NCBI RefSeq assembly: GCF_032302195.1
Contig: NZ_CP135275.1
Location: 2,852,001-2,916,000, forward strand
DNA length: 64,000 bases
Reading direction: 5' to 3'
Source: Paenibacillus sp. MMS20-IR301
GTDB lineage: Bacteria; Bacillota; Bacilli; Paenibacillales; Paenibacillaceae
In this document: positions 24,889 through 44,449 of the stretch, piece by piece
How the letters are laid out: the number at the start of each line of letters is the position of its first letter
Numbering within the stretch: the stretch's first letter is position 1
The notes under the pieces: model-generated
What the model saw: only the letters and a program-made list of their open reading frames with translations
The model's database searches: none
Told to the model about the DNA's origin: nothing
Translations under genes and position numbers: made by a program

Positions 24889-25167
24889 TGTTATCCTCCA
24901 CAATGTTTGAAAAATTCATTTGAATAAACCCTGTTATACCAAGGGGTATTTTCACAAAGGTTGTATCGGTATCTTCTTATAAATAGAAAATAGTTGAGAA
25001 ATTCTTTATAAAGTTTGCAAAAGGTTAATTTCTTCCTTAAGGTTTGAAAAAAGATTTGCCGATATCAGAAAGTTTGCAAAAGGTTATGCATCTGTGTCAC
25101 AAAATTTGAAAATGCTTTTTTGGTTTTGTTGAATGGAATGCTGATTAAAGTAAAAGATGGTAGCAAC

Positions 25168-25210
25168 ATATAAAAGTTCTGGCATCGAGTAGATGCCAGA
25201 ACTTTTATAT
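25168..25210. terminator. Strong hairpin terminator at the end of tnsC
   Basis: Perfect 19-bp arms (25168-25186 and 25192-25210) flank the 5-nt loop GAGTA. It overlaps the tnsC stop codon (25205-25207). A-rich and T-rich arm ends suit termination in both directions, insulating the module from the end. Confidence 0.85.
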
Positions 25211-28118: not shown

Positions 28119-28139
28119 TTTAATTCCTCCTTGGGTTTA

Positions 28140-29942
28140 TCAATGTACATTTGCTTGCGAGTACATCAAATTTTCCACATCGCTTTTTTTAACGTACTGC
28201 GAAAAACTTTTACCTTTTGGTATTTTGCGTGCGACATCTATTGCACCGTCGTCAATCCATCTTTGAACTTTGCGTTGCCCCACATTTAGCATCGAAGAAA
28301 TTTCTTTTACGGTATACCCAATTTCGTCAATGCGCTTTTGTCGTGCTTCTGCAATCAGCTTTTGAACATCCCTTTTGTGAAGAAAAATCCCGCTAAGCGA
28401 TAGTTCTTTGGATGCAACCGCTGTTTTGATCCTGCCGGTTAGAATTAATTGAGTGAGTTCAATGGCGTTGAACCCGCTGTTGTGTAAATGCAGCAACGAT
28501 TCGTGAAATGATTTCCACTCGGGTGATGGCTTTACCATTACAACAGTTCCTGTCGTCACATTTTGAAGAAATGCTGCAACTGTTTCTGGTTCAAAAAGAC
28601 GCTTTTGAAACCCATCCACTTTGGGTCCGCGGAGTGCTGGCAGTAAACCTGCGTCAGCAAGCTTCCAAACCTGTAATCGGTGAATGCCTAATGCCTTCGC
28701 CACCTGTTCTGAGGTCAGAAGGGACTTCCTTTTCAACGACCACGCATCTACATCACTCTTCGTAAACATCATGTTCTTGCGAACTGTGCGTGGACGCTGA
28801 TGTCCTTTTAAGAATCCAGCCTCAATAAGATGCATACATTGTTTGTACGTGATAGAAAGCTTTTCAAGTGTCTCCTGAAGTGTGTAATAGTTGGAATCCG
28901 GGATGGTAATCTCATTTTTCCGTCTTGGATAGACGTAAGTAAGATTCCTCAAATATTCGTCGTACAAGCTTTGATGATCTTCGAGCGCTGGGAAATCTAT
29001 AATTTTCCGCAGTAACCTGCGCTTGTAGATGAAGCGCTTCTCTGGAAATGTTGTCATTTCTTCAAGCGTTCTTACCACTTCGTTAAAGCATTCGTCTGGA
29101 GTTGATAACAGAAAATACGCTGCCGTGTGAACAGCAGTAATCATCTGAACATCTCTTTCTTCACCTCCTTTAAGCAGATAATTTGCACTCTCACCTAATA
29201 TGGGAAAGTGTTTGAATACAAGGTGATTTCCATCGAAATGATGGAGCAGCGATGAAAACAAGTGAACCAAACGGAAATAGTCGCGTGCATTTATATTCGA
29301 ACCCGCATTCAATTCCATTTCTGTTGTGTTTCCAGCGATCAGTGATTGCGTAATTCGCTGAGCCTCCATTACCATCGCAGATAACACAGTTTCGCTTTGA
29401 GTATCTTCAATAAAGGTACCGCATCGGCAGTGACCAGCCATCAAGTCAAAGATGGACGTTGTTTTTTGACACGACGTACATCGTTCAAGTAACAACAGTT
29501 CATGTTCTAGGCAGACTGTCACATTTGCAATATCCCATTGCAACCGATGGAATGGATCTTCTCTCATACACTGTGGGCAATATTTAACCCGCTTTTGGTA
29601 AAAGAAAAGCTCAAGATCCCTTTTGTTCGGTGGTTTATCGAAAAAAAGCTTCTCAAACTGATTCAGTGTCAGCTTTTCAGGAAAGAGTCCCCCTTGTTGT
29701 ACAATTTCAGCAAGCTTTTTCTGTACCCCAGAAGCTTTACAGAAATTTAAATTGCATGAGTACACCGTAGAATGGTTCACGTTATCAAGCAGAAACTGCA
29801 AACTGGTATATACGTTTTCAACCGTCGCTATTCGGAAGAGGAAACTATATATGCTTTCCCCTTCTTTCGGCAGTGTGCATAAATCAAAGCTGATTTCGCA
29901 TCGCTCCCTTAGAGTATGGACCCAATATTTGGATCCAAACAT
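28140..29942 (-). CDS. tniQ: TniQ/TnsD-like target-selection protein (copy 1)
   Basis: A 600-residue protein. The N-terminal TniQ domain (SIYSFLFRIATVENVYTS) is followed by Cys/His zinc motifs: Cys122/125, Cys144/His147, Cys155/158 and Cys172/174. The C-terminal half has several MerR/excisionase-like HTH units: YTLQETLEKLSI near 352, LTSEQVAKALGIHRLQVWK near 410 and YTVKEISSMLNVGQRKVQRW near 545. This size and layout match TnsD-type sequence-specific target binders rather than short TniQ. It is the first gene of the tniQ-tnsB-tnsC unit, isolated from upstream genes by a terminator. The ATG at 29942 lacks a good ribosome site. Confidence 0.88.
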   Translation of the reverse strand: MFGSKYWVHTLRERCEISFDLCTLPKEGESIYSFLFRIATVENVYTSLQFLLDNVNHSTVYSCNLNFCKASGVQKKLAEIVQQGGLFPEKLTLNQFEKLFFDKPPNKRDLELFFYQKRVKYCPQCMREDPFHRLQWDIANVTVCLEHELLLLERCTSCQKTTSIFDLMAGHCRCGTFIEDTQSETVLSAMVMEAQRITQSLIAGNTTEMELNAGSNINARDYFRLVHLFSSLLHHFDGNHLVFKHFPILGESANYLLKGGEERDVQMITAVHTAAYFLLSTPDECFNEVVRTLEEMTTFPEKRFIYKRRLLRKIIDFPALEDHQSLYDEYLRNLTYVYPRRKNEITIPDSNYYTLQETLEKLSITYKQCMHLIEAGFLKGHQRPRTVRKNMMFTKSDVDAWSLKRKSLLTSEQVAKALGIHRLQVWKLADAGLLPALRGPKVDGFQKRLFEPETVAAFLQNVTTGTVVMVKPSPEWKSFHESLLHLHNSGFNAIELTQLILTGRIKTAVASKELSLSGIFLHKRDVQKLIAEARQKRIDEIGYTVKEISSMLNVGQRKVQRWIDDGAIDVARKIPKGKSFSQYVKKSDVENLMYSQANVH

Positions 29943-30032
29943 GGTTTTTTAAATGGTAAACGAAAGTAAAACTTGACCTAACTTTAAATCAATTAGGAAA
30001 AGGTTTTTCAGTTGACAATTGAAATGAAAAAG

Positions 30033-30078
30033 AAAACAAAACAAACCCGCCTAGAGCCAGGCGGGTTTGTTTTGTTTT
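30033..30078 (-). terminator. Strong rho-independent terminator between the two tniQ units
   Basis: Perfect 20-bp arms (30033-30052 and 30059-30078) surround a 6-nt loop. The GC core is AAACCCGCCT/AGGCGGGTTT. It lies 26 bp past the 30104 gene and would separate it and tniQ copy 2 from tniQ copy 1 onward. Confidence 0.88.
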
Positions 30079-30103
30079 TATAAAATACTAATATGTAAAT
30101 AAT

Positions 30104-30751
30104 TTACGTCCATGATGTTGCTTTAATCTTCGCCGTGATGTCATTACAACGACGTTCAGCTTCCATTCCGCTACACCCTGTTAGCGTATCATGAATAACA
30201 CGCAGTAACTCATTGACCGAATTCCGGAGCTCAGGATCTTCCTTGATGACATCATAAATACGTTGAAAACCTCGAATATTGGAAAGACCTTTCCGAACCG
30301 TTACGCCCAATATCTCGTCACGGTGAATCCCTTTCTGCTTTTCAAAATAAAGGATATCCTCCGCAGTTAGTGATGTTGGGCTTGCCACATTCAATACATT
30401 TTGTAATGATCGAACATCGGGATAGCCATAATCCTCTGCAATTTCCATAAGATATTCGGTCTTATGCCCTCTTTTAATACGTTTTGCAATTGCCGCTTCG
30501 AGGTTGATGGCAATTTGGCTTCGAATCTTATTATCTGCATCACGTCTTTTCAACTCCATAATTGGAGGACTGTCATGATCTTTTTCTTCTAAACGGATCT
30601 GCTTTCCCATAACTTCCCGGAATACATTGGACTCTACACAGATCCAGTCCCGAAGATTCCCAGATGTATCTTTGCGTTGCACTTCGTAATAAAGATGTTC
30701 ACCGCTTTGAGTTTCAAATTTCCCATCGGGTTTCAAGACTTCATCGCGCAT
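30104..30751 (-). CDS. Unknown protein encoded between the two tniQ genes
   Basis: A 215-residue soluble protein that I do not recognise. The frame can be extended to a TTG at 30766, but GGAGGT lies 7 nt before the ATG at 30751, which fixes the start. The N-terminal half is charged. The middle is rich in Lys/Arg (ELKRRDADNKIRSQIAIN, AKRIKRGHKTEYLMEIA) and could bind nucleic acid. The C-terminal half looks helical and contains Cys residues (GCSGMEAERRCND). It shows no zinc finger, no TnsA nuclease motif and no recombinase signature. It follows tniQ copy 2 on the same strand, so a role in target choice or in regulation is plausible but unproven. Confidence 0.7.
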   Translation of the reverse strand: MRDEVLKPDGKFETQSGEHLYYEVQRKDTSGNLRDWICVESNVFREVMGKQIRLEEKDHDSPPIMELKRRDADNKIRSQIAINLEAAIAKRIKRGHKTEYLMEIAEDYGYPDVRSLQNVLNVASPTSLTAEDILYFEKQKGIHRDEILGVTVRKGLSNIRGFQRIYDVIKEDPELRNSVNELLRVIHDTLTGCSGMEAERRCNDITAKIKATSWT

Positions 30752-30839
30752 ATTTATAACCTCCAATTAATTGTCATTTATTAAATCTTGTCTATGTAAA
30801 AACAAAAAGAAATTGACATTCAAATACATGTCAATCTCT

Positions 30840-32702
30840 CTAAGATGTTTTTTGATTATGATGAGATTTTATTGATAATGCTTCTCTCAACTGATCCACG
30901 TTAATTAATTTGCTTTTAGAAAGCCCCATCATTACATCTTTAAGCCGCCCAATTACCAGCCATCTGCGTATAGTGGCATCTGAGATACCAAACTGCATGG
31001 CAGCTTCACTTATTGTGAGATGATTTTGTTTAAAAACGTCAACTTTCTCCTTGTCGTACACATATTGTTTACGACCGTCCTTTAACGTAATGACTTTGTC
31101 TGGAGTCAATATATGATGGGTTGCCATCGTCCATATTGTCTTCTCCCCAACACGAAAAATCTCCTGCAAATCAGTCATAAAATAACCATTTTTAGTTTGG
31201 TTTTCCTTTTTGATCTGCTTCATACGTAAAATAAGATCATTTTCATCGTAATATACATCTTTAAGTGTTCCCGTATTGCCATAGCTCATCGTTTTTAAAT
31301 CATTCTTTAAAGTAAATTCGATTAAAAGGGCAAACGAGAGACCACAATGATTATATTTTTCAAATGCCTTATCAAAGGATATCATAGTTGGGCTTTTAAA
31401 CGGCACCATTTTGTTCCGGCAGCGGCTTATCAAATTGTTGACTTCATCTCTTAAAAGCTTATTGGATCCATCAGGTGACCGACTAAGCCGAAGTATACCA
31501 GCTGAAATGAGCTTTGAGACAGTGTCGCGTTGAAAACCCAGCATCTTAGCTGCTTCGGATCTTGTAACAAAACACTTCATTTGTTTCACCGTTGCTTCAA
31601 GTATTTTCTTTTCAATACGATAGCGATTAATCTTTTGTTTTGGAATGATTTTTGTTTGAAGAGCACCATAACGGTTTAATGAATTGATTTTTTCGTATGT
31701 GAGACCATATTTGTTTTTTACCTCTTCTCTAGAAAGGTGAGTCCTCTTTCCTAAAAGAGATGGCTCTTCCTTAAATACCGAAAAGTCAGCCCGAACGTTA
31801 CCACTATCAGCTTGATTGACCCAATAGGTTTGGTAAGCTTTTTTGATAACTTTAAATTCAGGTCGCCACAAAAGCTTTTCAAATTCGGGTTTTTGCATAT
31901 ATTTTATACTTGGATCTTTCTTTTGAAAAGCGTCAAGAACCTGTATGAAATGGTTTGGAAATGCTTCATACATAAAATGGACACTTGCGTATGCATGTGC
32001 GCTGTTTTCGGTAGTTTTATCTCTACCTTCTTTATTATAGAAACCCACTACAGGCTTTTTATAATCGGTATGGCGAGTAAGACCTTCAATGATAAACATA
32101 CTACGGCTGCTTAGTTGCAAATAATTAGCAAGCGACAGATTACCAAATAATGAACATTCCCCTTCTTCAATTAACCTTTGTAATTCCAACTGGGCTTGAA
32201 AAAGCAGAGAATCCCGATTTACTAATTGTAGGGCAGCATATTTATATTCAAATCCGCAATGCAGACAGTAGCCATCCATAAACGTATTCATGCTCAAGTC
32301 TCTGAAGCAGAATTGGCATTCTTCGATCAGTAACGTTTCATGCTCAAGGCAAACTGCGACCGGATACAGGGTCCAAATTGACTTATAATAATGATCTTGT
32401 TGAATACAAATAGGACAATATTTAGCTTTATTTCTGAAAGCTATCTTCTCGTATGCATTGGCACCCATGGACGTTTTAAATCCATGGGAACTCATCGAAA
32501 CAAGCTCTTGAATATCAAATCCTGTAATATCAGCAACTAGCTTAATGGCATCCATAGTGAAGTCGTTATTATTAATATCAGCGACAGAAATGGACAAATC
32601 ATCCGCCATGATGCTTACATTAAAGTGACCATTAGCTCGTAATAATCTTTGTAAATAACTAGACAAACTCTCATTTGGAAAAATCCAAGGTATCTGATTC
32701 AC
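30840..32702 (-). CDS. tniQ: TniQ/TnsD-like target-selection protein (copy 2)
   Basis: A 620-residue protein with an N-terminal TniQ domain (ESLSSYLQRLLRANGH). Zinc motifs are Cys96/99, Cys118/His121, Cys129/132 and Cys146/149. Several HTH segments follow (TRSEAAKMLGFQRDTVSKLI near 386, LTISEAAMQFGISDATIRRW near 576). It is clearly related in plan to copy 1 but divergent in sequence, so the two may recognise different targets. AGGAGGT lies 7 nt before the ATG at 32702. It is divergent from the GIY-YIG gene, with a palindrome between them. Confidence 0.88.
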   Translation of the reverse strand: MNQIPWIFPNESLSSYLQRLLRANGHFNVSIMADDLSISVADINNNDFTMDAIKLVADITGFDIQELVSMSSHGFKTSMGANAYEKIAFRNKAKYCPICIQQDHYYKSIWTLYPVAVCLEHETLLIEECQFCFRDLSMNTFMDGYCLHCGFEYKYAALQLVNRDSLLFQAQLELQRLIEEGECSLFGNLSLANYLQLSSRSMFIIEGLTRHTDYKKPVVGFYNKEGRDKTTENSAHAYASVHFMYEAFPNHFIQVLDAFQKKDPSIKYMQKPEFEKLLWRPEFKVIKKAYQTYWVNQADSGNVRADFSVFKEEPSLLGKRTHLSREEVKNKYGLTYEKINSLNRYGALQTKIIPKQKINRYRIEKKILEATVKQMKCFVTRSEAAKMLGFQRDTVSKLISAGILRLSRSPDGSNKLLRDEVNNLISRCRNKMVPFKSPTMISFDKAFEKYNHCGLSFALLIEFTLKNDLKTMSYGNTGTLKDVYYDENDLILRMKQIKKENQTKNGYFMTDLQEIFRVGEKTIWTMATHHILTPDKVITLKDGRKQYVYDKEKVDVFKQNHLTISEAAMQFGISDATIRRWLVIGRLKDVMMGLSKSKLINVDQLREALSIKSHHNQKTS

Positions 32703-32763
32703 AAAAACCTCCTAATCTACATTTTAGCCAAGAAATCAGAAAATATATCGTTTAACAGTCATA

Positions 32764-32785
32764 TATATAAGCAAACGCTTATATA
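32764..32785. promoter_or_regulatory. Palindrome in the divergent tniQ / GIY-YIG intergenic region
   Basis: Perfect 9-bp arms TATATAAGC / GCTTATATA flank the 4-nt centre AAAC. The position between two divergent genes suggests an operator controlling expression of the transposition module. The binding protein is not known. Confidence 0.55.
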
Positions 32786-32804
32786 CTAGTGTTGAGGTGA
32801 TACT

Positions 32805-33179
32805 ATAAAAACAAATTTAATACCATTCAGAATCGGCGTATTCGCCATATTGAATCAGGTTAATCAGAAAGTTTTCATTGGGTCGGGAAATTTATATTCA
32901 CGAAAAGCATCAAATTGGAGCCAACTGCGTGCCGGAACACATAAGAATGTTGGTTTACAGAAAGAATGGGACAAGTTTGGTGAAGATCAGTTCAAGTTTG
33001 TTATTCTTTTTGAATGCGAGGATGCCGCTGATGTTTCTTTCTTAAACAAATGTGAAAGATACTGGTTAGACTTAACAAAAGCAACACGAAAAGAATACGG
33101 CTATAACACAAACAGGCAAGCCCATAAAAATGAAGACTTTGTATTGAAAATTGAGTGTCTGGAAAAGGTCGCCGAATAA
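32805..33179 (+). CDS. Small GIY-YIG-domain nuclease-like protein, unusual start
   Basis: The frame holds a short GIY-YIG domain. GVFAIL and VFIGS stand for the GIY and YIG strands, followed by W..LR.G.H.N..LQ..W...G...F.F, a conserved Glu in KCERYWLD and a final GYN. The first conventional start is TTG at 32850, which would cut off the GIY strand. An in-frame ATA at 32805 has GAGGTGA just upstream and would restore the domain (124 residues). Either a rare ATA start is used or the ATG has mutated. The gene is alone on the plus strand, divergent from tniQ copy 2 and followed by a terminator. It may be an endonuclease linked to the element. Confidence 0.7.
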   Translation: MKTNLIPFRIGVFAILNQVNQKVFIGSGNLYSRKASNWSQLRAGTHKNVGLQKEWDKFGEDQFKFVILFECEDAADVSFLNKCERYWLDLTKATRKEYGYNTNRQAHKNEDFVLKIECLEKVAE

Positions 33180-33214
33180 AAGAAAGGCATCCATTTTGAT
33201 GGATGCCTTTCTTT
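33179..33214. terminator. Bidirectional terminator
   Basis: Perfect 15-bp arms (33179-33193, 33200-33214) with A-rich and T-rich ends lie between the converging GIY-YIG and phosphatase genes. Confidence 0.85.
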
Positions 33215-33226
33215 CGTTTCTTCATG

Positions 33227-33673
33227 TTATGATCTTGCGTATATTTGTTTTAATAATTCCTTTTGCATGGGTTTAATGTTAATGACTTGTCTAATACCTT
33301 TAGCTTTCGCTTCAGCTTCTTCGAATGTATCAGCAAGTCCTAGTTCTAATATGGTTCCAGCAGCAACGGTCCCTGTTCTCCCCTTGCCTCCACCACAGTG
33401 AAAGGCAACTTTTTTGCCCTCATTGTATGCACTAACTACCTCATCAATGGCTTGTTTAAAAAGATTCGCTTCCGTTTCTTGGGTATTATCATCAAGCGGA
33501 ATCTTCACCCAGCGTACGTGATCCGACGGATACGCACACTCCGTTGCTTCTTCTCTCAGGTCCACGATAATTTCAACACCTTCATTGATGACCATTGCTT
33601 CTACATCGGCAGCCCCGCCCATGAAGATCTTGTCGTCAATGAGTGCATGGTACTTATTTTCGCCATTTTGCAT
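33227..33673 (-). CDS. Dual-specificity/tyrosine phosphatase family protein in the ars operon
   Basis: A 148-residue protein with the CX5R active-site loop HCGGGKGRTG (residues about 92-101) and an upstream general-acid loop region containing LDD. This is the cysteine phosphatase family, which cleaves phosphoprotein or phospholipid monoesters. The start is 1 bp after the arsC stop, so it is translationally coupled and last in arsR-arsB-arsC-phosphatase. The nucleophilic cysteine and its link to arsC suggest a role in arsenate handling, but this is inference. Confidence 0.85.
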   Translation of the reverse strand: MQNGENKYHALIDDKIFMGGAADVEAMVINEGVEIIVDLREEATECAYPSDHVRWVKIPLDDNTQETEANLFKQAIDEVVSAYNEGKKVAFHCGGGKGRTGTVAAGTILELGLADTFEEAEAKAKGIRQVINIKPMQKELLKQIYARS

Positions 33674-33674
33674 C

Positions 33675-34100
33675 TTACTTACCTTCTTTCAAAAATTGCT
33701 CAATTCGGTTTTTAATCGAATCACGAACTTCAGCAAATTTTGCTGTAATCTCTTCTTCTGTACCGGTCGCTTTAGCTGGATCATCAAAACCCCAGTGCCA
33801 TCTTTCTGCTTTGTCGTTACGGACGACCGGACAATTATCGTTGGCATGACCGCAAAGCGTGATGATGTAATCAGCTTCCTTTAAAATTTCAGGGTCGATG
33901 ACATCAGAAGTGTGATTTGAAATATCAATTCCTGCTTCTTTCATCGTTTGAACAGCACGTGGATTTAACCCGTGTGCCTCTAGACCTGCACTTTTCACTT
34001 CAAATTTATCACTTCCAAGTGCTTTCAAAAATCCATCAGCAATTTGGCTCCTGCAAGAGTTTCCGGTACACAAGAAGTAAACGAGTGGTTTGTTGTTCAT
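33675..34100 (-). CDS. arsC: Arsenate reductase, thioredoxin-coupled low-MW phosphatase type
   Basis: A 141-residue enzyme reducing As(V) to As(III). The P-loop CTGNSCRS has nucleophile Cys11 and Arg17. The redox relay cysteines Cys83 and Cys90 lie in [11 protein letters not shown]. This triad marks the Bacillus/Staphylococcus type that is re-reduced by thioredoxin, not glutaredoxin. It lies 36 bp downstream of arsB and 1 bp before the phosphatase gene. The product As(III) is exported by ArsB. Confidence 0.96.
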
Positions 34101-34136
34101 GATTAACGATCTCCTTTATTTTCATTCTGGTTAATT

Positions 34137-35552
34137 TTAACGTCTCTTCTGGTAAGCAGCCTTACCCATTTTTGAGCTAACCAGAGCTTTGATTAGCCAA
34201 GCAATTACCACAAGCGCAATAGTTACAGCAGCAATTAAAACCCAAACATTCATGTTTAATGAATCGATAACGTATAGCCAGATATACAAGCCTGTTAACG
34301 TAATAAACAATGTCGGAACCGTGAGTAAAATACCGGTTTTAAAGTAACTGCCCCATGTAATTTTAATATCCTTGCGTGACAATACATGAAGCCACAATAA
34401 GGTAGCCAGCGATCCGATCGGCGTGATTTTGGGACCCAAGTCACTGCCGATCACATTGGCATACACGAGAGACTCCCGTATTATCCCTTGCGCATCTGTT
34501 CCTTGAATGGCAAGAGCATTAATCATAACCGTCGGCATATTGTTCATAATCGACGACAATATAGCGGCTAAAAAACCCATTCCCATCGTTGAGGCATACA
34601 GCCCTTGTTCAGAAATAGTCTCGATAAATCTGCCCAACTCATCTGTCAGCCCCACATTACGAAGACCGTAGACAACGACATACATACCAATGGAGAAGAT
34701 AACAACTGCCCATGGAGCCCCTTTAACCAGCTTCCATGTTTGAATGGCTGGACTTTTACGTGCTGCCAAAATAAAGAGGACGGCAACCACACCAGCAATC
34801 ACAGAAACCGGAACCTTTATAAATTGGCTGACCAGGTAGGCAACAAGCAAGACAGCTAAGATGATCCACGAAATTTGGAACAGCCGTTTGTCCTTAATCG
34901 CTTCTGCCGGTTTTTTAAGCTGCTTTAAGTCATAGTTACTCGGAATACTTTTACGGAAGAAGATAAACAAGACAATAAGACTCGCCAGCAGTGAAAAAAA
35001 GTTCGGAATGATCATCCGGCTGGCATATTCGACAAAGCCGATACCGAAATAATCAGCAGACACGATATTTACAAGGTTACTGACGACAAGCGGAAGTGAT
35101 GCCGTATCTGCAATAAAACCACTTGCCATAATAAAAGGCAGAATCATTTTCTGATCGAACTTGAGTGCTCGCACCATGGCTAGCACGATTGGCGTTAAGA
35201 TGAGCGCGGCACCGTCATTGGCAAAAAAAGCTGCTACTGCCGCGCCAAGAAGAACGACGTAAACGAACATCAGCTTGCCATTGCCTCTGGCGAGCCTTGC
35301 CATGTACAGTGCTGCCCATTCAAAAAAGCCGATTTCATCCAAAATAAGCGAAATCAAGATAATGGCGACAAAAGCAAGGGTAGCATTCCATACAATCCCT
35401 GTAACCGTACCTACGTCAGAGAAGCTAACGACTCCAAAGAGAAGCGCGAGAATAGCGCCTGCAGAAGCCGACCATCCAATGTTTAGCCCCTTGGGTTGCC
35501 AGATCACAAAGGTGAGTGTCAGTAAGAAAATTAAAACTGCAATGACTGTCAT
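34137..35552 (-). CDS. arsB: Arsenite/antimonite efflux permease ArsB
   Basis: A 471-residue membrane protein with about twelve hydrophobic helices and ArsB-type motifs ([37 protein letters not shown]). It exports As(OH)3 and Sb(OH)3 using the proton gradient. It belongs to the ArsB/NhaD ion-transporter superfamily, not Acr3. The start overlaps the arsR stop by 4 bp (ATGA), indicating coupling. No arsA ATPase gene is present, as in most Gram-positive ars operons. Confidence 0.95.
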
Positions 35553-35881
35553 ACTTCCTCCTGTGGACTACAGCAATCGTTATTAAGACAGACTATTTTG
35601 CTTTTCATTGACGGCAAGTGTTCATAAATACACTGTACATAGGACTCCGCTGCTGGATTTAACGAATAATATACCCACTGTCCTTTTTTCCTTTCGCTGA
35701 GAAGACCAGCTGACTTTAATTTTCGCAGATGTTGGCTGGCATTGGGCTGTGACATACCAATAACATCGGTGATGTCGCAGACACAAAGTTCCTGCTCTTT
35801 AAGCAGTGCCACAATTGTCAGCCGCGTTTTATCGGCTAATAATTTATAGGTATCTGCCATTTCTTGTATCTTTTGTTCCAT
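35549..35881 (-). CDS. arsR: ArsR/SmtB-family arsenite-responsive repressor
   Basis: A 110-residue winged-helix repressor. The metalloid-binding motif ELCVCD (Cys32 and Cys34) is in the alpha-3 position, followed by the recognition helix [13 protein letters not shown]. Extra cysteines near the C-terminus ([10 protein letters not shown]) could add a third ligand. It releases DNA on binding As(III) and so induces its own operon. The start follows AGGAGGAG by about 6 nt. A 9-bp direct repeat upstream is a candidate operator. Confidence 0.95.
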
Positions 35882-35933
35882 ATGTAGCTCCTCCTGTCAT
35901 TCATCATATTGAGTTCAACATTTAATGACATAA

Positions 35934-35958
35934 TTATATAATTAATCACTTATATAAT
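35934..35958 (-). promoter_or_regulatory. Candidate ArsR operator (direct repeat)
   Basis: TTATATAAT occurs at 35934-35942 and again at 35950-35958, 16 bp apart. The location is 53-77 bp upstream of the arsR ATG, in an AT-rich promoter region. Operator function is inferred from position only. Confidence 0.45.
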
Positions 35959-35995
35959 CAATGACAAATATACAAAGGTATTGAAAACGTGAAAA

Positions 35996-36022
35996 CAGCC
36001 TTAGGCTTATTACCCAAGGCTC
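35996..36022. terminator. Possible terminator between gshF and arsR
   Basis: AGCCTT and AAGGCT arms flank a loop of about 13 nt, followed on the plus strand by CTTATTATTT. It lies about 75 bp past the gshF stop. The stem is short. Confidence 0.35.
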
Positions 36023-36097
36023 TTATTATTTATAGTGTTAACATATCCATATGGTCTTACCGTTCTGACAACCTGCATTTTCCCGTCTTATTTTTAG

Positions 36098-38437
36098 TTA
36101 ACTTTCCACTTTTCCAAACAGCAAGTCGAGAATTTTTTCATCCGCCTTGCGGTTTTTCCCCTTGTATGGATAGCAGTGGATATGAATGGCTGGATTAAAG
36201 TTGATCTCAATAATACTATAATTGGATCCGGCTGCTTCAGATGTAATATCATCTATCATCATGTCCACTCCACAGAAGGTAGCTCCTGCAGCCTTTGCTG
36301 ATTCAATGGCTAATGTCTTATAGCTCTCTGGAATGTCATCGGTAAAGTCAAGGCTGTCTCCACCTGTACTGATATTGGAGTTTTCCCGTAAATAAACGAC
36401 TTGACCTAACGTAGGGACCTCACTCCATTGATGGTTATGATTCTTTAAGAATATGGTTTCTGCTTCACCTAGCTGAATCTTTTCTAAAGGTGTCTTATAA
36501 CCGCGACCCCGAAGCGGATCTTTATTCTTTTCGTAGACGAGTTGCTCAATCGTGTGAATTCCATCACCCATGACATTGGCTGGTACGCGATGCAGTATCC
36601 CCACAACCTCATCACCCATGACCATGAATCGATACTCTTTACCTGTCATGAATTCTTCTAGCAGAACCGTCTGATCATGCTTAAACGCCATTTCAAATGC
36701 TTTTCGATAGTCTTCCTTGGAGAATGCACGATTAAAGATGGTAATACCCAAACCAAAGTTGGTGGACTTTGGTTTAATGACAATAGTTTTGTCACGGTAC
36801 ATCTCATAGGCAGCCAATGCCTCTTCCTGACTGTGGAAAGCATCTCCATTGGGTACACGAATACCACGTTCTTTAAGAACTTCTTTTGTCACAACTTTAT
36901 TCTCCATGATCAGTACCGTACTGTAGGAATCAAGCGACGTCTTGGTAGCCTGCTTTACATATTCCGTATGATCTCCCTTTGTAAGCAGGACGAAGTTCTC
37001 ATGACGGTCAATTAGTTTGAACTTAACCCCACGTTTCACGGCTGCCTTTAGAAGCAATTGTGTTGATAGTTCTAAATCTTCATATCCAACAAAGCGATAC
37101 CCATTTTTTTCGCTATCCTCGGCATAAACTTTAGCTTTAGCCAAATGATATTTCATGTAAGTGGATTTCTGAATTTCCGACTTAATTTTATAGGCAAAAC
37201 CCAACTCAGGATGAAGGATTTTTTGCATTTCTCCATCAAGGAGTTGGAAGAATTCTTCCCCATCAGGATTAAGGAGTTGCACCATTTCTTGCATCTCACG
37301 GATACAAGCAACCGCCATCTCCTTCATCGTGCCACGGGAGCCCTGAGAATCATTTAAGATACCATCAATGCCCTCAGTGATCACTTGATCATGATTGAGG
37401 TCCGCCATCTTCTGGTCTTCCGTACAAAAAAGCTCATCTTCTTTGAGCAGCATAAAAAGAATGAACAGATGGATAAACTTCATCGTTTCTTTACTGATCC
37501 CAATCTTATGCAGTGGGTTGAGATCAATCAAGCGCAGCTCTAAGTACGCCACACCATCTTCCACAAGTTCTTTTAATGGATTCAACCCTTTGGCTGTTTT
37601 CAACCGAACGGGATTGTAGAATTCCTTTGCATTCAGCAATTCATCTTTCTGAATTAGTGTGTTCAAATCCTGTACGTAGTCATGTATCGAATCAAAGGAT
37701 ACATAGAATGGTTTTTTATTCCGATAACCACATACACTATTCCGAAGCGAATTCATCTTAGGGAAATAGTGACTCTTGTTATCATCTGAATTGCTTAATG
37801 ACACACACTCTTGGATATAGGTTTTGTCAAAGACTGGACTTGCCCCTGTGAGATAAATAAGCAACCAACGGTACCGAAGCAGGTTGTGTGCAATCCTAAA
37901 GTAAATGGCATCCTTGAAGTCTTTGTAAGCTTCCCCCTTGCTTATCGTTTCATGTAGCTTTCGTAAGAACCGTTCATCAAACGAGAAATTATAATGGATT
38001 CCACTTAGCAGTTGTCTTTTGCGACCATACTTATCTGCTAGTTCATGACGATACTCATCAGCAATCGGATCATTCATCTTTGCAATCGGGATCTTTTGTT
38101 CTTCGGGTAAGATCGGCGGATTACTACTTGTCCACAGATATTCACCTTCAAGCTCTAATGTCACAATGTCCTGTAAAGCTTCCATGAACTGATAGGTCTC
38201 TTCAATCGAATCAAAGGCTGGGGTAATCATCTCGATTTGGCTCTCTGAAAAATCTGTTTGGATATAGGGATTCTCCGTTTTACTCCCAAACGCCTTTGGA
38301 TGTGGGGTCAGCGCCAATTTTCCCTCATGATCTACCCTAACATTCTCTTTCTCCAAACCAAATTGACCTCGAAACAGATCCTTATTTAACGAATTATCAA
38401 TAATTTGTTTTATGATTTCACGATTTAATAAATTCAT
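36098..38437 (-). CDS. gshF: Bifunctional glutamate-cysteine ligase / glutathione synthetase
   Basis: A 779-residue fusion enzyme. The N-terminal half (about 1-450) is a glutamate-cysteine ligase with FGLEKENVRV near the start. The C-terminal half (about 480-779) is an ATP-grasp domain (VIKPKSTNFGLGI, LLEEFMTGKEYRFMV, EINFNPAIHIHCYP). Together they make glutathione from Glu, Cys and Gly, as in GshAB/GshF of streptococci, Listeria and other Firmicutes. The length is typical. AAGGAAGGT precedes the ATG. It lies within the arsenic cargo upstream of arsR on the same strand, where glutathione would complex As(III) or buffer redox stress. Confidence 0.94.
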   Translation of the reverse strand: MNLLNREIIKQIIDNSLNKDLFRGQFGLEKENVRVDHEGKLALTPHPKAFGSKTENPYIQTDFSESQIEMITPAFDSIEETYQFMEALQDIVTLELEGEYLWTSSNPPILPEEQKIPIAKMNDPIADEYRHELADKYGRKRQLLSGIHYNFSFDERFLRKLHETISKGEAYKDFKDAIYFRIAHNLLRYRWLLIYLTGASPVFDKTYIQECVSLSNSDDNKSHYFPKMNSLRNSVCGYRNKKPFYVSFDSIHDYVQDLNTLIQKDELLNAKEFYNPVRLKTAKGLNPLKELVEDGVAYLELRLIDLNPLHKIGISKETMKFIHLFILFMLLKEDELFCTEDQKMADLNHDQVITEGIDGILNDSQGSRGTMKEMAVACIREMQEMVQLLNPDGEEFFQLLDGEMQKILHPELGFAYKIKSEIQKSTYMKYHLAKAKVYAEDSEKNGYRFVGYEDLELSTQLLLKAAVKRGVKFKLIDRHENFVLLTKGDHTEYVKQATKTSLDSYSTVLIMENKVVTKEVLKERGIRVPNGDAFHSQEEALAAYEMYRDKTIVIKPKSTNFGLGITIFNRAFSKEDYRKAFEMAFKHDQTVLLEEFMTGKEYRFMVMGDEVVGILHRVPANVMGDGIHTIEQLVYEKNKDPLRGRGYKTPLEKIQLGEAETIFLKNHNHQWSEVPTLGQVVYLRENSNISTGGDSLDFTDDIPESYKTLAIESAKAAGATFCGVDMMIDDITSEAAGSNYSIIEINFNPAIHIHCYPYKGKNRKADEKILDLLFGKVES

Positions 38438-38491
38438 ATGTCGGACCTTCCTTCTTATTTGTGTAAAATCACGGTTATTAGAACTTTCAAC

Positions 38492-38611
38492 CTATCTATT
38501 TTCCATTGCTGCTGCCGCCAAACCCAGCGGTCCCGTTCCAATAATTGCAACAGGTAATACATTTTTTTTACTGGCGTCTACAACAGATCGTTTGGTTTGC
38601 AGGAATACATC
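38492..38611 (-). pseudogene. Remnant of an ArsO-like FAD/NAD(P)-binding monooxygenase
   Basis: The minus strand reads VLPVAIIGTGPLGLAAAA, a GxGxxG dinucleotide-binding start typical of flavoprotein monooxygenases found in ars islands, and stops 5 codons later (MENR, then TAG). No in-frame start codon exists; the nearby ATG is in another frame. Only about 40 codons survive. A MarR-type operator lies just upstream, as if it was once the regulated gene. The family assignment rests on this short segment only. Confidence 0.55.
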
Positions 38612-38637
38612 TCATTATGCTTCTTCTCCTCAATATT

Positions 38638-38654
38638 ATTTGCAAATTGCAAAT
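38638..38654. promoter_or_regulatory. MarR-type operator, copy 2
   Basis: ATTTGCAA and TTGCAAAT form a perfect inverted repeat around a single A. It shares the half-site pattern ATTTGC-N5-GCAAAT with the copy upstream of marR at 39157-39183. It lies between the MarR stop and the flavoprotein remnant. Confidence 0.7.
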
Positions 38655-38680
38655 ATATGACTTAGTTAAAGGGATAGTAA

Positions 38681-39127
38681 CTATCCCAGTGGTGTACAAC
38701 ATACACTTGACTTCTCCATACTGGAGTTAAGCAGTTTGATTGCGTTAATGACCATGTCCCGCTCAAACTCAGACATATGCGAGAACACTTCTATTAAATA
38801 GTCATTCATCTGTTTATCGATGACTGTAGCAATATATTTTCCTTGCGTTGTTAAGTTTAAAATATAAATTCTACGGTCTTCCGGAAGCGGAGTCTTCTGA
38901 ACTAGCCCCATTTTCACAAGGCTTTGAACCTGGCGACTAAATGTGGTGATATCCATTGCAAGTCCATCCGCCACCTGCTGAATGGATGGATTATGTTTGC
39001 GATCAATTTCATAAATAATATGACTCTGCACCAGGGAAATATCCACTCCCCCTGCGACGCAACAATTTTTATCTAATAGCCCAAACCGTCGCGTCATGAT
39101 TTGAAATATTTCTCTTAGGTTTTCCAC
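38681..39127 (-). CDS. MarR-family regulator with paired cysteines
   Basis: A 148-residue winged-helix dimer-type regulator with recognition region AMDITTFSRQVQSLVKMGLV and wing EDRRIYIL. The frame can begin at GTG 39136, but AAGGGGTG lies 6 nt before GTG 39127, so that start is preferred. Adjacent cysteines occur near both ends (Cys22-Cys23 and Cys143-Cys144), a pattern suited to thiol-binding arsenicals or oxidation sensing. It lies between gshF and the divergent acetyltransferase gene. Two matching palindromes flank it, suggesting autoregulation and control of both sides. Confidence 0.85.
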   Translation of the reverse strand: MENLREIFQIMTRRFGLLDKNCCVAGGVDISLVQSHIIYEIDRKHNPSIQQVADGLAMDITTFSRQVQSLVKMGLVQKTPLPEDRRIYILNLTTQGKYIATVIDKQMNDYLIEVFSHMSEFERDMVINAIKLLNSSMEKSSVCCTPLG

Positions 39128-39156
39128 TTCTTTCACCCCTTGAATTATTTATACCT

Positions 39157-39183
39157 CAATTATTTGCAAAACGCAAATAATTG
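39157..39183. promoter_or_regulatory. MarR-type operator, copy 1
   Basis: Perfect 11-bp arms CAATTATTTGC / GCAAATAATTG flank the 5-nt centre AAAAC. It is between the divergent marR and arsN1-like genes, so one site could control both. Confidence 0.75.
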
Positions 39184-39266
39184 TTTTGAAATTTTTTTAG
39201 CCCTTCCCATATCAAATCAAGATGTGATATAAAAGCGATATAGGACAAATTATAGGAGTGATGATG

Positions 39267-39755
39267 ATGTTTTTAGTACGACCAGCTACAGCATCTGATC
39301 TAAGCGAAATATTACATATCTATAATCAAGGAATTGAGGATCGGATCGCCACATTGGAATCCGAATTAAAAGATGAGGTATATATGAACCAGTGGTTTGA
39401 CAAACATCAGGAGCGGTACGCGGTACTTGTAGCCGAGCAGGATCATCAAGTGATTGGATGGGCTTCCATCAATCCGTATAGTCCCAGAAGCGCTTATGAT
39501 GGTGTCGGTGACCTTTCCATCTATATTCATCGCAACCATCGCGGCAAAGGAATAGGCAGACAATTGCTTCAAAAATTAGAGACTGTCGGCAAAGAAAATA
39601 AATTTTATAAATTTGTTCTATTCACTTTTCCATTCAACAATCTAGGACAAGGCTTATATCATAGAGCTGGATATCGGGAAGTTGGAATATTTCAGAATCA
39701 AGGTATCTTGGACGGTGCGTTTATAGATGTGATGGCGATGGAGAAGTTGCTGTAG
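39267..39755 (+). CDS. arsN1: GNAT acetyltransferase, ArsN1 (arsinothricin/phosphinothricin) type
   Basis: A 162-residue GNAT enzyme with RPATASDLSEILHIYNQGI at the N-terminus, IEDRIATLES, and the acetyl-CoA pyrophosphate loop HRGKGIGRQLL. This is the phosphinothricin acetyltransferase-like subgroup, whose ars-island members (ArsN1) N-acetylate the organoarsenical antibiotic arsinothricin. The frame opens with GTG and four Met codons. AGGAG lies 8 nt before the ATG at 39267. It is divergent from marR with a shared operator. A plain phosphinothricin acetyltransferase is the alternative; the arsenic context favours ArsN1. Confidence 0.82.
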   Translation: MFLVRPATASDLSEILHIYNQGIEDRIATLESELKDEVYMNQWFDKHQERYAVLVAEQDHQVIGWASINPYSPRSAYDGVGDLSIYIHRNHRGKGIGRQLLQKLETVGKENKFYKFVLFTFPFNNLGQGLYHRAGYREVGIFQNQGILDGAFIDVMAMEKLL

Positions 39756-40070
39756 ATTGGAAACTCATGATCTGTTGCTATAATCGTAATTTACATCTTC
39801 CTTTCGATAATTGTCGCAGGAATAACTAGGTAAGATGTCGAATAATACAATTCATACATAGGTCATTAGAATGAGAATATACTATATGGAAGAGGATTTT
39901 TCATTTGTTGAACTAAAGAATAACAGTGATGTATTATTAAATTGTTTAATGTTTGTGGATTATGAACAAAAACCCAACTAACATTTAATTTTTCGAATAA
40001 GTTGACAATTAAAAAATAAGAGTTAACTTTATAACATATTACAAACACAATGTCATACAAGGTTTATGCC

Positions 40071-40118
40071 ACATGATTTGTCAAATGAAATGTCACACGA
40101 ATTTTCACATGAATTGTC
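40071..40118 (+). repeat. Degenerate 12-bp tandem repeat, four units
   Basis: The units are ACATGATTTGTC, AAATGAAATGTC, ACACGAATTTTC and ACATGAATTGTC. In one plus-strand frame they read as the tetrapeptides HDLS, NEMS, HEFS and HELS. This frame opens with an ATG two codons earlier and closes after 33 codons, so it may be the remnant of a repeat-containing protein end or a chance array. Confidence 0.55.
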
Positions 40119-40210
40119 ACGAGGGGTTAGATTCTTCAATCTTTCCCCTTTAACTTTTGCTTTGTAAAGTGCATCGAAATAAATAAGTTCAACATATATA
40201 TGCTTATTAC

Positions 40211-40243
40211 AAAAATACGCCTTTGACCGGGGCGTATTTTTTT
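40211..40243 (+). terminator. Rho-independent terminator
   Basis: Perfect 11-bp arms AAAAATACGCC / GGCGTATTTTT flank a 9-nt loop and run into further Ts. It is on the strand of the acetyltransferase gene and inside the right end, so it would insulate cargo and host nrdJ. Confidence 0.8.
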
Positions 40244-40273
40244 ATTGCCTTTTGATGCGGAACGGCATAAAAA

Positions 40274-40302
40274 AACAAAGCGTAAGAGTAACGCTTCGTT
40301 TT
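40274..40302 (+). terminator. Second hairpin terminator near the right end
   Basis: Arms AACAAAGCGT / ACGCTTCGTT (9 of 10 pairs) around AAGAGTA are followed by TT. It is a weaker companion of the one 30 bp upstream. Confidence 0.5.
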
Positions 40303-40620
40303 GGTAGATCTTTTTCAATTTTTCAGAAAATAATACGTCATTCTTTTTCATATTTAGTGAATTTCGAGTCGGATTAATGTCGATCTTTTTCAAACTCTGT
40401 GATTTCGGCTTAAGCATTTCCAAACTTAAAGAATGAAAACAAGCTTTTTCAAACTTTATTAAAAAGCATGTTTTCAAAACCGATTAAATTTCAGTGGTTT
40501 GAAAATTATTTTTAACACTTAAATCAACAAACCTAGTCATCACAAGGGTTTAACCAGCTAAAATTCCCAAACTTTATTTTCACTTTTGCAAACCTTTTGA
40601 AGGATAACAATAAGAAAATC

Positions 40621-40635
40621 CTTATCGGGACTTTT
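40621..40635 (-). repeat. Right terminal inverted repeat of the Tn7-like element
   Basis: It is the reverse complement of AAAAGTCCCGATAAG at 24874-24888, a perfect 15-bp match. The inner neighbourhood also matches the left end after a short length difference. Confidence 0.8.
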
Positions 40636-40642
40636 TGCTCGC

Positions 40643-40648
40643 ATTTAT
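40643..40648 (+). repeat. Candidate target-site duplication, right copy
   Basis: ATTTAT matches 24863-24868. It lies 18 bp beyond the nrdJ stop codon on the side of the insertion. Confidence 0.4.
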
Positions 40649-40666
40649 TTCATTTCACATTCCATC

Positions 40667-43600
40667 TCAACCACACCGGCTATACCCGCAATTCCCACAT
40701 GTCTTGCACCCTTCAATATTAATCAGCGATGCACTGCCGCAGGATGGGCAGAGATCCCGCGAAGCTGTAGCGTGGCTATGAGCGCTATGGCCGCCATGCT
40801 CGGCATCGGCCTGAGCCGCGGCCGGAACACTCGCTTTCAGCTCGGCGTTCAGCGCCTCGGTGAAATCCTCCAGCTCCAGCGTGGCCGCGATCGGAGCGGC
40901 CGCATGATCGTCATGTGCATTATTCAGCACATGAGTTTCGAGGGCCTTCGCCACCGCGTCGGCGATAGACTCGACACGGTTCGCGCCGAAGCCGATGGCG
41001 CCGGAGCCGCCGATGCCCTTGAGATGCTTGATCAGCAGGCCGACCTTCTCACCGTGGTCGCCGTAGCGCAGGAACAGCGAGCAGACCCGGCCCAGCGCTT
41101 CGGCCATGGCGAAGACGTCGGAGCCGGCTTTGCCGACATTCAGGAAGATTTCGGCCGGAATGCCGTCCAGGTCATTAATGGTGATATACGCCATTCCGAA
41201 CGGCGTGTTGATCTTGTACGTAGCGCCGCGCAGCACCTGCGGGCGTTTCTTGTATTGCTTGTCCACACCGCTGGCCGCAGGCTGCGCAGCAGGCACTGCC
41301 GCCACAGTAACAGGCTCAGCCGCTACCGGTTCAGCGTTCTTAGCCTCAACGGTTTCAACCTCAGCCAGTGTCTCCTTCTTCTCTTCCTTCTTCGCCGTTT
41401 CCAGCACCTGCACATCGCGGCTGCCGTCACGGTAGATGGTTACGCCTTTGCAGCCCAGATCGAAGGCCATTTCGTACAGCTCGGCGGTTTCCTCTATCGT
41501 GAAGTCGGACGGGCAGTTCGCGGTCTTGGAGATGGAGCTGTCTACCCAGCGCTGAATCGCCGCCTGTGCGCGGATATGATCCTTGGCGGACAAATCCATC
41601 GAAGTCACGAAGTACTCCGGCAGCTCTTCACCCGGATGGGCTTCCAGCCACTCCTCTGCAATCGGAACGAACTGCTCGTCATAGCCGAGACGGCTCTGGC
41701 GGTAATATTTGAAGGCGAAGTACGGCTCGATCCCGGTCGAGGTGCCGACCATCGTTCCTGTGCTGCCTGTTGGTGCCTGGGTAATCACGGTAACATTGCG
41801 CATGCCGAGCTCACGGATGGAATTACCGACCTCCGGATATACCTCAGCAATATTGCGCATGAATCCGCTCTGCAGATATTGTTCGGCATCAAATGCCTGG
41901 AACGAGCCCTTCTCGCCGGCGATCTCAGCTGAAGCCAGATACGCCTCGCGGGCCATGAAGCCATAGAGCTTGTCCAGGAATTCCAGGGATTCCGGGCTGC
42001 CGTAACGGATATTCAGCTTGATCATCAGCTCAGCCAGACCCATAGTGCCCAGGCCTACACGGCGCTCGAGCTTCTGGTTCGCTTCATTTTCCGGGAAATG
42101 ATAAGGTGTCTTGTCGATAACATTATCCAGGAAACGTACGGAATAACGGGTGGTTGTGGCCAGGTCCGCCCAGTCTACATCATGATTCTCCGCATCGTAG
42201 AACTTGGAGAGGTTCACAGCGGAGAGATTGCATACGCCCCAGCCCGGAAGTCCTTGTTCCCCGCAGTTATGAGCGACTACACCACCTGCAATCAGCGAGT
42301 GCGTTACAGGCTCAGTAATATCGTATACCGTTACAGTCTCGCCTGGTTCAATTCCCACGACCCGTGACATGAATTTCTCCGTTTTGCGTGAAGGTCTGGC
42401 GATCCGCTCCAGGGCTTCCTGTTTTCTGGTAAGCAGCTTGAAGCCGATCTTCTCCTTGAACTCTACAATATTGTTGCCGCTTATAATCAGCTCATAAAAT
42501 CCGCCGCCCGCATAGCTGCGTTCTTCCCCGTTTATGGTCGTGTAAGAGAACAACGCCTGAGCTTTCTTCTCACGATTATAGATGGAGCTGTTGATTCCGA
42601 AATTGAGCAGCAGCAACTGTACACCTTGCAAAAGCTTCTTCGATGCGGATGTCAGCCGGACCGTGCGGTGCATCTCGTCATTCTCATATACCGTACCGTC
42701 TGCCGAGAATAATCCTTGCAGGAAAGCTGTAACTGTCTCACGTGAAGCCGTATAGAGAGCGGCCGGAACCTCTTTGCCGGCAGCTTTAACCGCCTTAACA
42801 CCCAGTGCCTCAAGCTGTTCACGGAAAGACTTACGCCACCAGTATGCCTGCTTGGTACCGTTGCTGCGGTCAAACACCTTAGCGGTCACACCTGTAATGC
42901 TCTCCCCGGCAGCAATCAGCGCCGGAATCACTTCGCTGTCCGCTTCACCAAACACCATGCCGATATCACCGCGCCCGGACACCCATCCGTCGCCAGTAAG
43001 CCAGCCCAGGAACCAGCCCCACTGCTGTCCAAGTGTATCTTCAGCCGCGAAGCTGCCTTCACCGGACTGCAGATATACACGGTCGTCAGCAGTTAAAGCA
43101 TGGGCCTCTTTCCAGCCGGAATCGGTATACAAACGATGCTCAGGGGTGACGGATATTTCAACGCCATTTTGCAGGGAAATCTTCAAAGTCTCTCTGGTTC
43201 CGGTCGGGAACACTGTAGCCCGTCTCATCTGCAGTCCCGGAACTTCATAGCTTCTACCGCCTACTACCTTCGCTGCTTCAACCAGCCGCAAGTCTGTGCC
43301 GACAAGGAAAGATTCTCCTGCTGTCTTCTTGTACAGCTGTTCTATAGTAAGGAGTCCATATTCAGTCGCGATCCGCGTATCCGGGTGGAAGCACGGATTA
43401 GTACAAATAATCGGATTGAAATACCAGCTGTTCGACATCTGGTTGTAGTATTCCATGAACACTACGCCCGGCTCAGCCGATTTCCAGGCCGATTCAATAA
43501 TCGTATGCCATACATCGCGGGCCTTGACGGTACGGTAAGGAATGACGCGGCGTCCATCGGCTTTCCATTTCTCCAGATCCCCGTCCCAGATGGTATCGTA

Positions 43601-44449
43601 GTCCGGATCAGTTGTATCAGGGAAGACCAGCTCCCAGTCGAGATCCTCCTTAACCGCCTTCATGAAGCCGTTGCTCACGCATACCGACAGGTTGGCATTC
43701 GTGACCTGCCCCATTGTCTGCTTCACGGTAATGAAATCAAGCACATCCGGATGCCAGTCATTGATCATCAGCATCAGCGCACCTCTGCGGCTGCCGCCCT
43801 GCTCAATCAGTCCGGTGGTATAGCTGAAGAGGCCGCCCCAGGATACAGAGCCGCTGGATGATCCGTTTACTCCCCGGACAATCGCCCGGCGCGGGCGCAG
43901 CGAAGACAGGTTAATCCCGACACCGCCGCCGCGGGCCATGATTTCGGTCATTTCGGAGAGTGTCTGCATGATGCCGCCGCGGCTGTCTTTTGGCGAAGGA
44001 ATAACATAGCAGTTGAACAGCGTAAGCTCCTCGCTCGCCCCTGCCCCGGCAGCAATCCGGCCGCCCGGTACGAGCTTCCAGTCATCCAGAATCGAGCGGA
44101 ACCTGCTTGTCCACTCTGCCTGCAGCTCAGGGGTCTTCTCTACCGAGGCCATTGCCGCCGACAGCCGGTCCCACATTTCCTCCGGAGTCTTCTCAATGTT
44201 CAGCGTCAGCTTCTCCACATCCGACTGCACGAGCTCGCCGCTGCGGGTCCGCACCGTAACAATCCGGCCTGTACGCTCTACAATCTCGCCGACCTCCTTG
44301 GTCGGGAACTTCGGATCATCCTTGGTCAGGACCAGCACGACATCGCCAACCTTGGCATTGTTACTGTCCGCATCCTTCCAGGCATAACGGTCCAGAAATA
44401 TTTTCTCGCTCAGACCTTCAAGACGCTGCTTGCCTTCCACTCTTCCCAA
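40667..44449 (-). CDS. nrdJ: Class II (B12-dependent) ribonucleoside-diphosphate reductase with intein
   Basis: A 1260-codon frame: 884 residues of reductase interrupted by a 376-residue intein (residues 353-728). The reductase reduces ribonucleotides using adenosylcobalamin. Visible marks are FNCYVI with the reducing Cys147, the split finger-loop motif NP-CGEQ, APTGSTG, and a C-terminal zinc-ribbon-like tail (CPSCG, CKTCGNCG) that re-reduces the active site. The start is TTG at 44449 with CCGGGAGG upstream. Two NrdR-box-like sites lie upstream. The Tn7-like element sits directly past its stop codon, making this the likely attachment gene. Splicing is required for activity. Confidence 0.95.
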   Translation of the reverse strand: MGRVEGKQRLEGLSEKIFLDRYAWKDADSNNAKVGDVVLVLTKDDPKFPTKEVGEIVERTGRIVTVRTRSGELVQSDVEKLTLNIEKTPEEMWDRLSAAMASVEKTPELQAEWTSRFRSILDDWKLVPGGRIAAGAGASEELTLFNCYVIPSPKDSRGGIMQTLSEMTEIMARGGGVGINLSSLRPRRAIVRGVNGSSSGSVSWGGLFSYTTGLIEQGGSRRGALMLMINDWHPDVLDFITVKQTMGQVTNANLSVCVSNGFMKAVKEDLDWELVFPDTTDPDYDTIWDGDLEKWKADGRRVIPYRTVKARDVWHTIIESAWKSAEPGVVFMEYYNQMSNSWYFNPIICTNPCFHPDTRIATEYGLLTIEQLYKKTAGESFLVGTDLRLVEAAKVVGGRSYEVPGLQMRRATVFPTGTRETLKISLQNGVEISVTPEHRLYTDSGWKEAHALTADDRVYLQSGEGSFAAEDTLGQQWGWFLGWLTGDGWVSGRGDIGMVFGEADSEVIPALIAAGESITGVTAKVFDRSNGTKQAYWWRKSFREQLEALGVKAVKAAGKEVPAALYTASRETVTAFLQGLFSADGTVYENDEMHRTVRLTSASKKLLQGVQLLLLNFGINSSIYNREKKAQALFSYTTINGEERSYAGGGFYELIISGNNIVEFKEKIGFKLLTRKQEALERIARPSRKTEKFMSRVVGIEPGETVTVYDITEPVTHSLIAGGVVAHNCGEQGLPGWGVCNLSAVNLSKFYDAENHDVDWADLATTTRYSVRFLDNVIDKTPYHFPENEANQKLERRVGLGTMGLAELMIKLNIRYGSPESLEFLDKLYGFMAREAYLASAEIAGEKGSFQAFDAEQYLQSGFMRNIAEVYPEVGNSIRELGMRNVTVITQAPTGSTGTMVGTSTGIEPYFAFKYYRQSRLGYDEQFVPIAEEWLEAHPGEELPEYFVTSMDLSAKDHIRAQAAIQRWVDSSISKTANCPSDFTIEETAELYEMAFDLGCKGVTIYRDGSRDVQVLETAKKEEKKETLAEVETVEAKNAEPVAAEPVTVAAVPAAQPAASGVDKQYKKRPQVLRGATYKINTPFGMAYITINDLDGIPAEIFLNVGKAGSDVFAMAEALGRVCSLFLRYGDHGEKVGLLIKHLKGIGGSGAIGFGANRVESIADAVAKALETHVLNNAHDDHAAAPIAATLELEDFTEALNAELKASVPAAAQADAEHGGHSAHSHATASRDLCPSCGSASLINIEGCKTCGNCGYSRCG
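42266..43393 (-). other. LAGLIDADG intein within nrdJ
   Basis: The intein spans residues 353-728 of the precursor. It begins with Cys353 (CFHPDTRI, block A) and has TPEHRLY (block B). Two homing-endonuclease motifs follow (LGWLTGDGWV near 481 and LQGLFSADGTV near 577). It ends with VYDITEPVTHSLIAGGVVAHN, with penultimate His and terminal Asn728. The next extein residue is Cys729. All splicing residues are present, so it should self-splice to restore NPCGEQ. The dodecapeptide acidic residues (Asp487, Asp584) are kept, so endonuclease activity is possible. Confidence 0.95.

Follow-up and report, generated by a model that had tools for sequence, protein, structure and literature searches.

What fixes the position of a transposon that ends just past nrdJ in Paenibacillus sp. 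MMS20-IR301: is the 3′ end of this conserved gene its attachment site and, if so, which of the element's two TniQ proteins selects it? The window that we analyzed is a stretch of 64,000 nucleotides from a closed genome of 7.69 Mb. Judging from comparisons of sequences across the family, the nrdJ 3′ end very probably serves as a Tn7-like attachment site in Paenibacillaceae, with the second TniQ protein (TniQ2) as a dedicated selector that has been exchanged between transposase backbones.

The element is complete and encodes TnsB, TnsC and two TniQ proteins, all recognized with Pfam, between paired, repeat-bearing ends flanked by a 5-bp duplication (Table 1). This content places it among the Tn7-like transposons, defined as carrying TnsB and TnsC plus TnsA and/or TniQ (in the available part of PMC11406308). 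TnsA, which that definition does not require, had no Pfam match among the scanned genes of the window, and none lies between TniQ and TnsB in the relatives of this backbone. The two termini match at 24 of 30 bases and the duplication is perfect on both sides; this pair of ends scored 42 versus 28 for the runner-up in one scan, and 44 versus 26 in a second. The transposition genes are transcribed from the minus strand in the order TniQ2, 220-aa protein, TniQ1, TnsB, TnsC, and the 220-aa protein had no match in Pfam, PHROGs or PADLOC. By sequence, the best solved relative of TnsC is that of Tn6677.

Table 1. Features of the element and of its insertion point (window coordinates).
Feature	Coordinates	Strand	Details
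nrdJ intrinsic terminator, arm 1, parted from the other arm by the element	24874-24888	+	
Target-site duplication ATAAG, copy 1	24884-24888	+	
Complete Tn7-like element	24889-40609		15,721 bp (15.7 kb); ends TGTTATCC...GGATAACA; terminal inverted repeats; flanked by a 5-bp duplication
Left-end cluster of GTTTGCAAAAG-like repeats, presumed TnsB sites	24905-25082	+	
TnsC/TniB AAA+ ATPase	25205-26128	-	307 aa; Pfam TniB 4.9e-22
TnsB DDE transposase	26112-28118	-	668 aa; Pfam rve and Mu-transpos_C; PDB TnsB relatives of its alignment
TniQ1	28140-29942	-	600 aa; Pfam TniQ 3e-13; tracks the backbone (trees)
220-aa protein	30104-30766	-	between the two TniQ genes, where relatives of the backbone have an XRE-HTH gene (synteny)
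TniQ2, proposed nrdJ target selector (TnsD role)	30840-32702	-	620 aa; Pfam TniQ 2.9e-15
Cargo	33227-39755		dual-specificity phosphatase, LMW phosphatase (ArsC-like), ArsB, ArsR, GshF-like glutamate-cysteine ligase/ATP-grasp, MarR, GNAT (Pfam)
Right-end cluster of GTTTGCAAAAG-like repeats in inverted orientation, presumed TnsB sites	40385-40593	-	
Target-site duplication ATAAG, copy 2	40610-40614	+	
nrdJ intrinsic terminator, other arm	40621-40635	+	
nrdJ with intein; proposed attachment site at its 3′ end	40667-44449	-	

The neighboring gene encodes a class II ribonucleotide reductase (Pfam Ribonuc_red_lgC and TSCPD) and has its stop codon at 40667-40669; the last base of the element is at 40609, which puts the tip 57 bp past the stop (52 bp if the 5-bp duplication is excluded). 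The initial annotation was right that the tip lies just past the nrdJ 3′ end and that the C-terminus encodes a Cys-rich tail (EGCKTCGNCGYSRCG), but its estimate of a 20-30 bp spacing does not hold for the window, and the interval that it singled out (40621-40700) contains the last nrdJ codons, the stop and one terminator arm while just missing the tip. When the two flanks were rejoined in silico, they formed an intrinsic terminator (stem of 15 bp) that folds at -21.9 kcal/mol, where 200 shuffles averaged -4.98 (z -8.2). The element was inserted at the edge of the terminator's loop, splitting the terminator and leaving nrdJ itself intact. The nrdJ intein carries a LAGLIDADG domain, and another nrdJ (L114) aligns without the intein stretch.

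To test whether nrdJ is an attachment site, we collected relatives of TniQ2. A search of 394 genomes of the family gave 14 matches that exceeded 200 bits (the window's TniQ2 is one of them), and an alignment of TniQ2 relatives run against the genome_contigs collection (84,980 species) gave 21 loci; the two sets overlap in seven, leaving 28 loci, namely the window and 27 further Paenibacillaceae, which by name belong to Paenibacillus and Cohnella. Six were left out of the count because the contig ends between TniQ2 and nrdJ. Of the 22 that remain, 20 are located downstream of nrdJ and on its strand (17 at 2-37 kb, the other three at 42, 60 and 91 kb), although these loci are related and therefore not independent. 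This agrees with the earlier proposal of nrdJ as an attachment site. The two located elsewhere are a fragment in genome G285, 1.3 Mb from nrdJ, and an element of P. pectinilyticus, 495 kb away, whose neighbors include a Mu Gam-like gene and a phage exonuclease-like gene; the latter location would fit an element that can reach mobile DNA as well. In genome G017 just a remnant of TniQ2 remains, and at the Paenibacillus sp. SYP-B3998 locus neither TnsB nor TnsC was recognized. Paenibacillus sp. BK033 has two TniQ2-type elements with different backbones (L258 and L264), 7 and 91 kb past one nrdJ, which are possibly stacked.

Relatives of TniQ2 are associated with three or more transposase backbones, which the phylogenetic trees set clearly apart. 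The nearest relatives of the window's TnsB are in genomes G041, G207 and G361; backbone 2 is separated from it with support of 100/99 and backbone 3 with 100/100. The window's TnsC (96/98) and TniQ1 (96/89, and 100/100 in a later tree) group with the same elements, which, as described below, are of a type that abuts comEC, whereas the first TniQ of the backbone-2 elements at nrdJ belongs to a different clade (98/97). It follows that only one TniQ protein, TniQ2, tracks nrdJ, since the relatives of TniQ1 go with the comEC-abutting backbone; the expectation that relatives of each TniQ might abut nrdJ was thus borne out for TniQ2 (20/22) and contradicted for TniQ1.

The same evidence weighs on the alternative assignment, in which TniQ1 would select nrdJ and TniQ2 would serve another route, for example to plasmids or phages. 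HTH domains are present in both TniQ proteins, and the phage-type genes beside the P. pectinilyticus element are what such a division of labor might produce, but the component common to the nrdJ elements is TniQ2, and we regard this swap of roles as very improbable given the company that TniQ1 keeps in the trees.

A natural comparison is provided by the seven elements that are closest to the window's by TnsB in the 394 genomes (G361, G207, G041, G255, G232, G302 and G108). The first six carry a sister type of TniQ2 (group support 93/90; the G232 copy is broken) and abut a split comEC, of which a single half is seen in each (L050, L052, L054, L056, L058 and L060); these six are not independent, since G207 and G232 share about 90% identity in this region. 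The split comEC was recognized by comparison of flanks, with Pfam Competence matching on the four halves tested, and a scan for ends in these relatives found none. The seventh, from Cohnella ginsengisoli (G108), has a broken TniQ2 for which 4 of 4 pieces match the nrdJ type best, one of them narrowly (119 versus 111 bits), and this element abuts nrdJ, with a duplication. Within the window's backbone the site therefore goes with the TniQ2 type: six elements of the sister type are at comEC and the one of the nrdJ type is at nrdJ. For this TnsA-less backbone, comEC is apparently a second attachment site; it is not mentioned as a Tn7-like insertion site in the literature searched, nor in the available part of PMC11472951.

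How the selector and the backbones came together differs between cases. TniQ2 of the backbone-3 elements (G360a, G287 and P. pectinilyticus) is nested among that of backbone 2 with support of 100/99, while the corresponding TnsB proteins are far apart; because the selectors interleave and the transposases do not, TniQ2 has been exchanged between these two TnsA-bearing backbones (TnsA, PF08722, scores above the cut-off in backbone 2 and slightly below it in backbone 3). That nrdJ is shared by deeply different transposases can be explained by such movement of TniQ2-type selectors between backbones. The window's own TniQ2 joined the nrdJ type with support of 99/94 in the first tree, 80/93 with more full-length rows and 34/66 when gene pieces were added, and a tree uniting it with the comEC type was not rejected (p-AU 0.21). 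All 28 loci, some of them represented by gene pieces, cluster weakly (34/66), and the 26 that remain when the window and C. ginsengisoli are set aside cluster at 86/82. For the window's TnsA-less backbone, TniQ2 was either acquired, or inherited while the comEC relatives changed theirs.

We were able to read the tip adjoining nrdJ in 20 elements, 19 with TniQ2 plus the G017 element with its remnant. In 16 of them the tip is 26-34 bp past the stop, and in the other four the distance is 42, 45, 48 and 57 bp. The spacing rule is accordingly loose, 26-34 bp applying to most of the elements at nrdJ, and the window is its farthest outlier. For five of the 20, the other end was identified too, and the 5-bp duplication is perfect: the window (CTTAT on the nrdJ strand, 57 bp past the stop, 15.7 kb), G060 (TACAT, 31 bp, 32.8 kb), C. 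ginsengisoli (ACCGT, 42 bp, 47.5 kb), Paenibacillus sp. SYP-B3998 (GCTGG, 34 bp, 18.6 kb) and G017 (ATGAG, 34 bp, 26.0 kb). The other 15 are placed by a TGT-type motif, with the far end unconfirmed; for most nrdJ elements no far end with a duplication was found, and the weak candidate in G045 is excluded from the count. Because the five duplications all differ in sequence, the insertion point itself is seemingly unrecognized, as has also been reported for Tn7 (in the available part of PMC2918618).

Could the elements instead home to intrinsic terminators in general, nrdJ merely having a strong one? The window would suit this idea, with its empty site forming a 15-bp-stem terminator and the element at the loop edge, and some other tips, such as that in SYP-B3998, do lie close behind a hairpin. 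For the other four duplication-bearing elements, however, rejoining the flanks yields no hairpin that the insertion would have interrupted, and we have rejected terminator homing for that reason. Moreover, terminators are frequent genome-wide, yet the feature that these loci have in common is nrdJ, beside which 20 of the 22 TniQ2 loci are found, making this explanation very improbable.

Tip-like sequences past nrdJ are also found in 21 of 59 further genomes of the genus (G017 included; 19 of the 21 at 30-34 bp), a count that is purely descriptive because the tip motifs were picked after inspection of the sequences. The 59 come from 60 genomes, taken from the 94 that had a match, minus G063, which yielded no stop, and the control consisted of 2,950 single-base shuffles. 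In the 20-kb flanks of 60 nrdJ loci (L154-L213), Tn7-like queries match in just two. The tips without a recognized transposase within 20 kb are likely the products of repeated insertion followed by decay. One type of tip, TGTGATGTGCCAC (G084, G067 and G037), could be linked to no transposase. These tips, most with no transposase nearby, together with the restriction of all finds to one family, might suggest descent from a single ancient island past nrdJ that was later reshuffled, with no active targeting involved, but five duplications that differ in sequence and position (31, 34, 34, 42 and 57 bp), backbones that are deeply different, and a window backbone most of whose close relatives abut comEC leave that account hardly any weight.

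We therefore return to nrdJ as a docking site, which it resembles because elements with related targeting proteins and different transposases share the spot in both Paenibacillus and Cohnella. In the mechanism that we propose, TniQ2 would bind the last coding stretch of nrdJ via a tandem winged-helix array (its AlphaFold2 model has a TniQ core plus winged-helix units, pLDDT 83.8) and, by analogy with Tn7, would load TnsC onto the downstream DNA. TnsB would insert the element in a fixed orientation, at a distance downstream of the stop that is usually 26-34 bp but 57 bp in the window, leaving the 5-bp duplication and the intact nrdJ that can be read directly from the sequence. The window's TnsA-less backbone would thus use the nrdJ site through its own TniQ2. 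Whether TniQ2 is, beyond this, an exchangeable address module for nrdJ, which would be a common home for at least three backbones (one of them TnsA-less), and whether its gain moved the window's backbone from comEC to nrdJ, we consider an even bet; any move between the two sites is one that we infer.

The arrangement closely resembles that of Tn7, in which the TniQ-family selector TnsD directs insertion at glmS (attTn7): both use TnsB and TnsC, insert in one orientation beyond the stop codon of a conserved gene that encodes an enzyme, and generate a 5-bp duplication, and Tn7, too, inserts in a transcription terminator (according to the title of Gay et al., 1986, as cited in the available part of PMC2918618). 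The window's element differs from Tn7 in its target, in having two TniQ proteins and no recognized TnsA, in the absence of TnsE among the scanned genes, and in its spacing (57 bp versus about 20-25 bp). In type I CRISPR-associated transposons, with their parE-, tRNA- and glmS-directed TnsD proteins, a second TniQ/TnsD likewise provides a fixed chromosomal home (available part of PMC11406308, in which nrdJ is not named as a target); unlike the CRISPR-associated group, the window's element has no Cas effector genes among those scanned with Pfam. Tn6022, with TnsF at comM, also has modular selectors, and its competence-gene target is reminiscent of the comEC insertions of the window's relatives, although TnsF is tyrosine-recombinase-like (available part of PMC10293859) whereas the selector here is a TniQ with predicted winged-helix units. 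Tn5053-type elements share the lack of TnsA (available parts of PMC8649781 and PMC11406308), but, unlike the Tn5053/Tn402 group, the window's element has no site-specific resolvase recognized among its Pfam-scanned genes, the short reading frames having been scanned in part.

The earlier suggestion that an nrdJ site may be new is so far upheld: the literature searched does not list nrdJ among Tn7-like sites, and the name is absent from the main texts of both PMC10293859 and PMC8649781 (0 occurrences), supplementary tables and site lists aside. A conserved metabolic gene would thereby be added to the known docking sites of Tn7-like elements. If the address-module reading is true, one gene would reset target choice in natural Tn7-like elements. 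With one backbone, two TniQ2 types and two sites (comEC and nrdJ), the modularity of the selector is directly testable. To our knowledge, site-specific insertion tools for Paenibacillus are scarce, and the nrdJ system may offer one.

Three further observations concern the interior of the element. The gap that separates the 220-aa gene from that of TniQ1 holds a probable terminator (30033-30078), an inverted repeat whose 20-bp arms pair perfectly around a loop of 6 bases. In the cargo, TTTGCAAAT-type inverted repeats flank the MarR gene at 38635-38660 and 39156-39181 and are possibly MarR operators. Finally, the arsenic genes for ArsR, ArsB and the LMW phosphatase travel together with that for the GshF-like glutathione-synthesis enzyme (33227-38437), which might supply the arsenate reductase.
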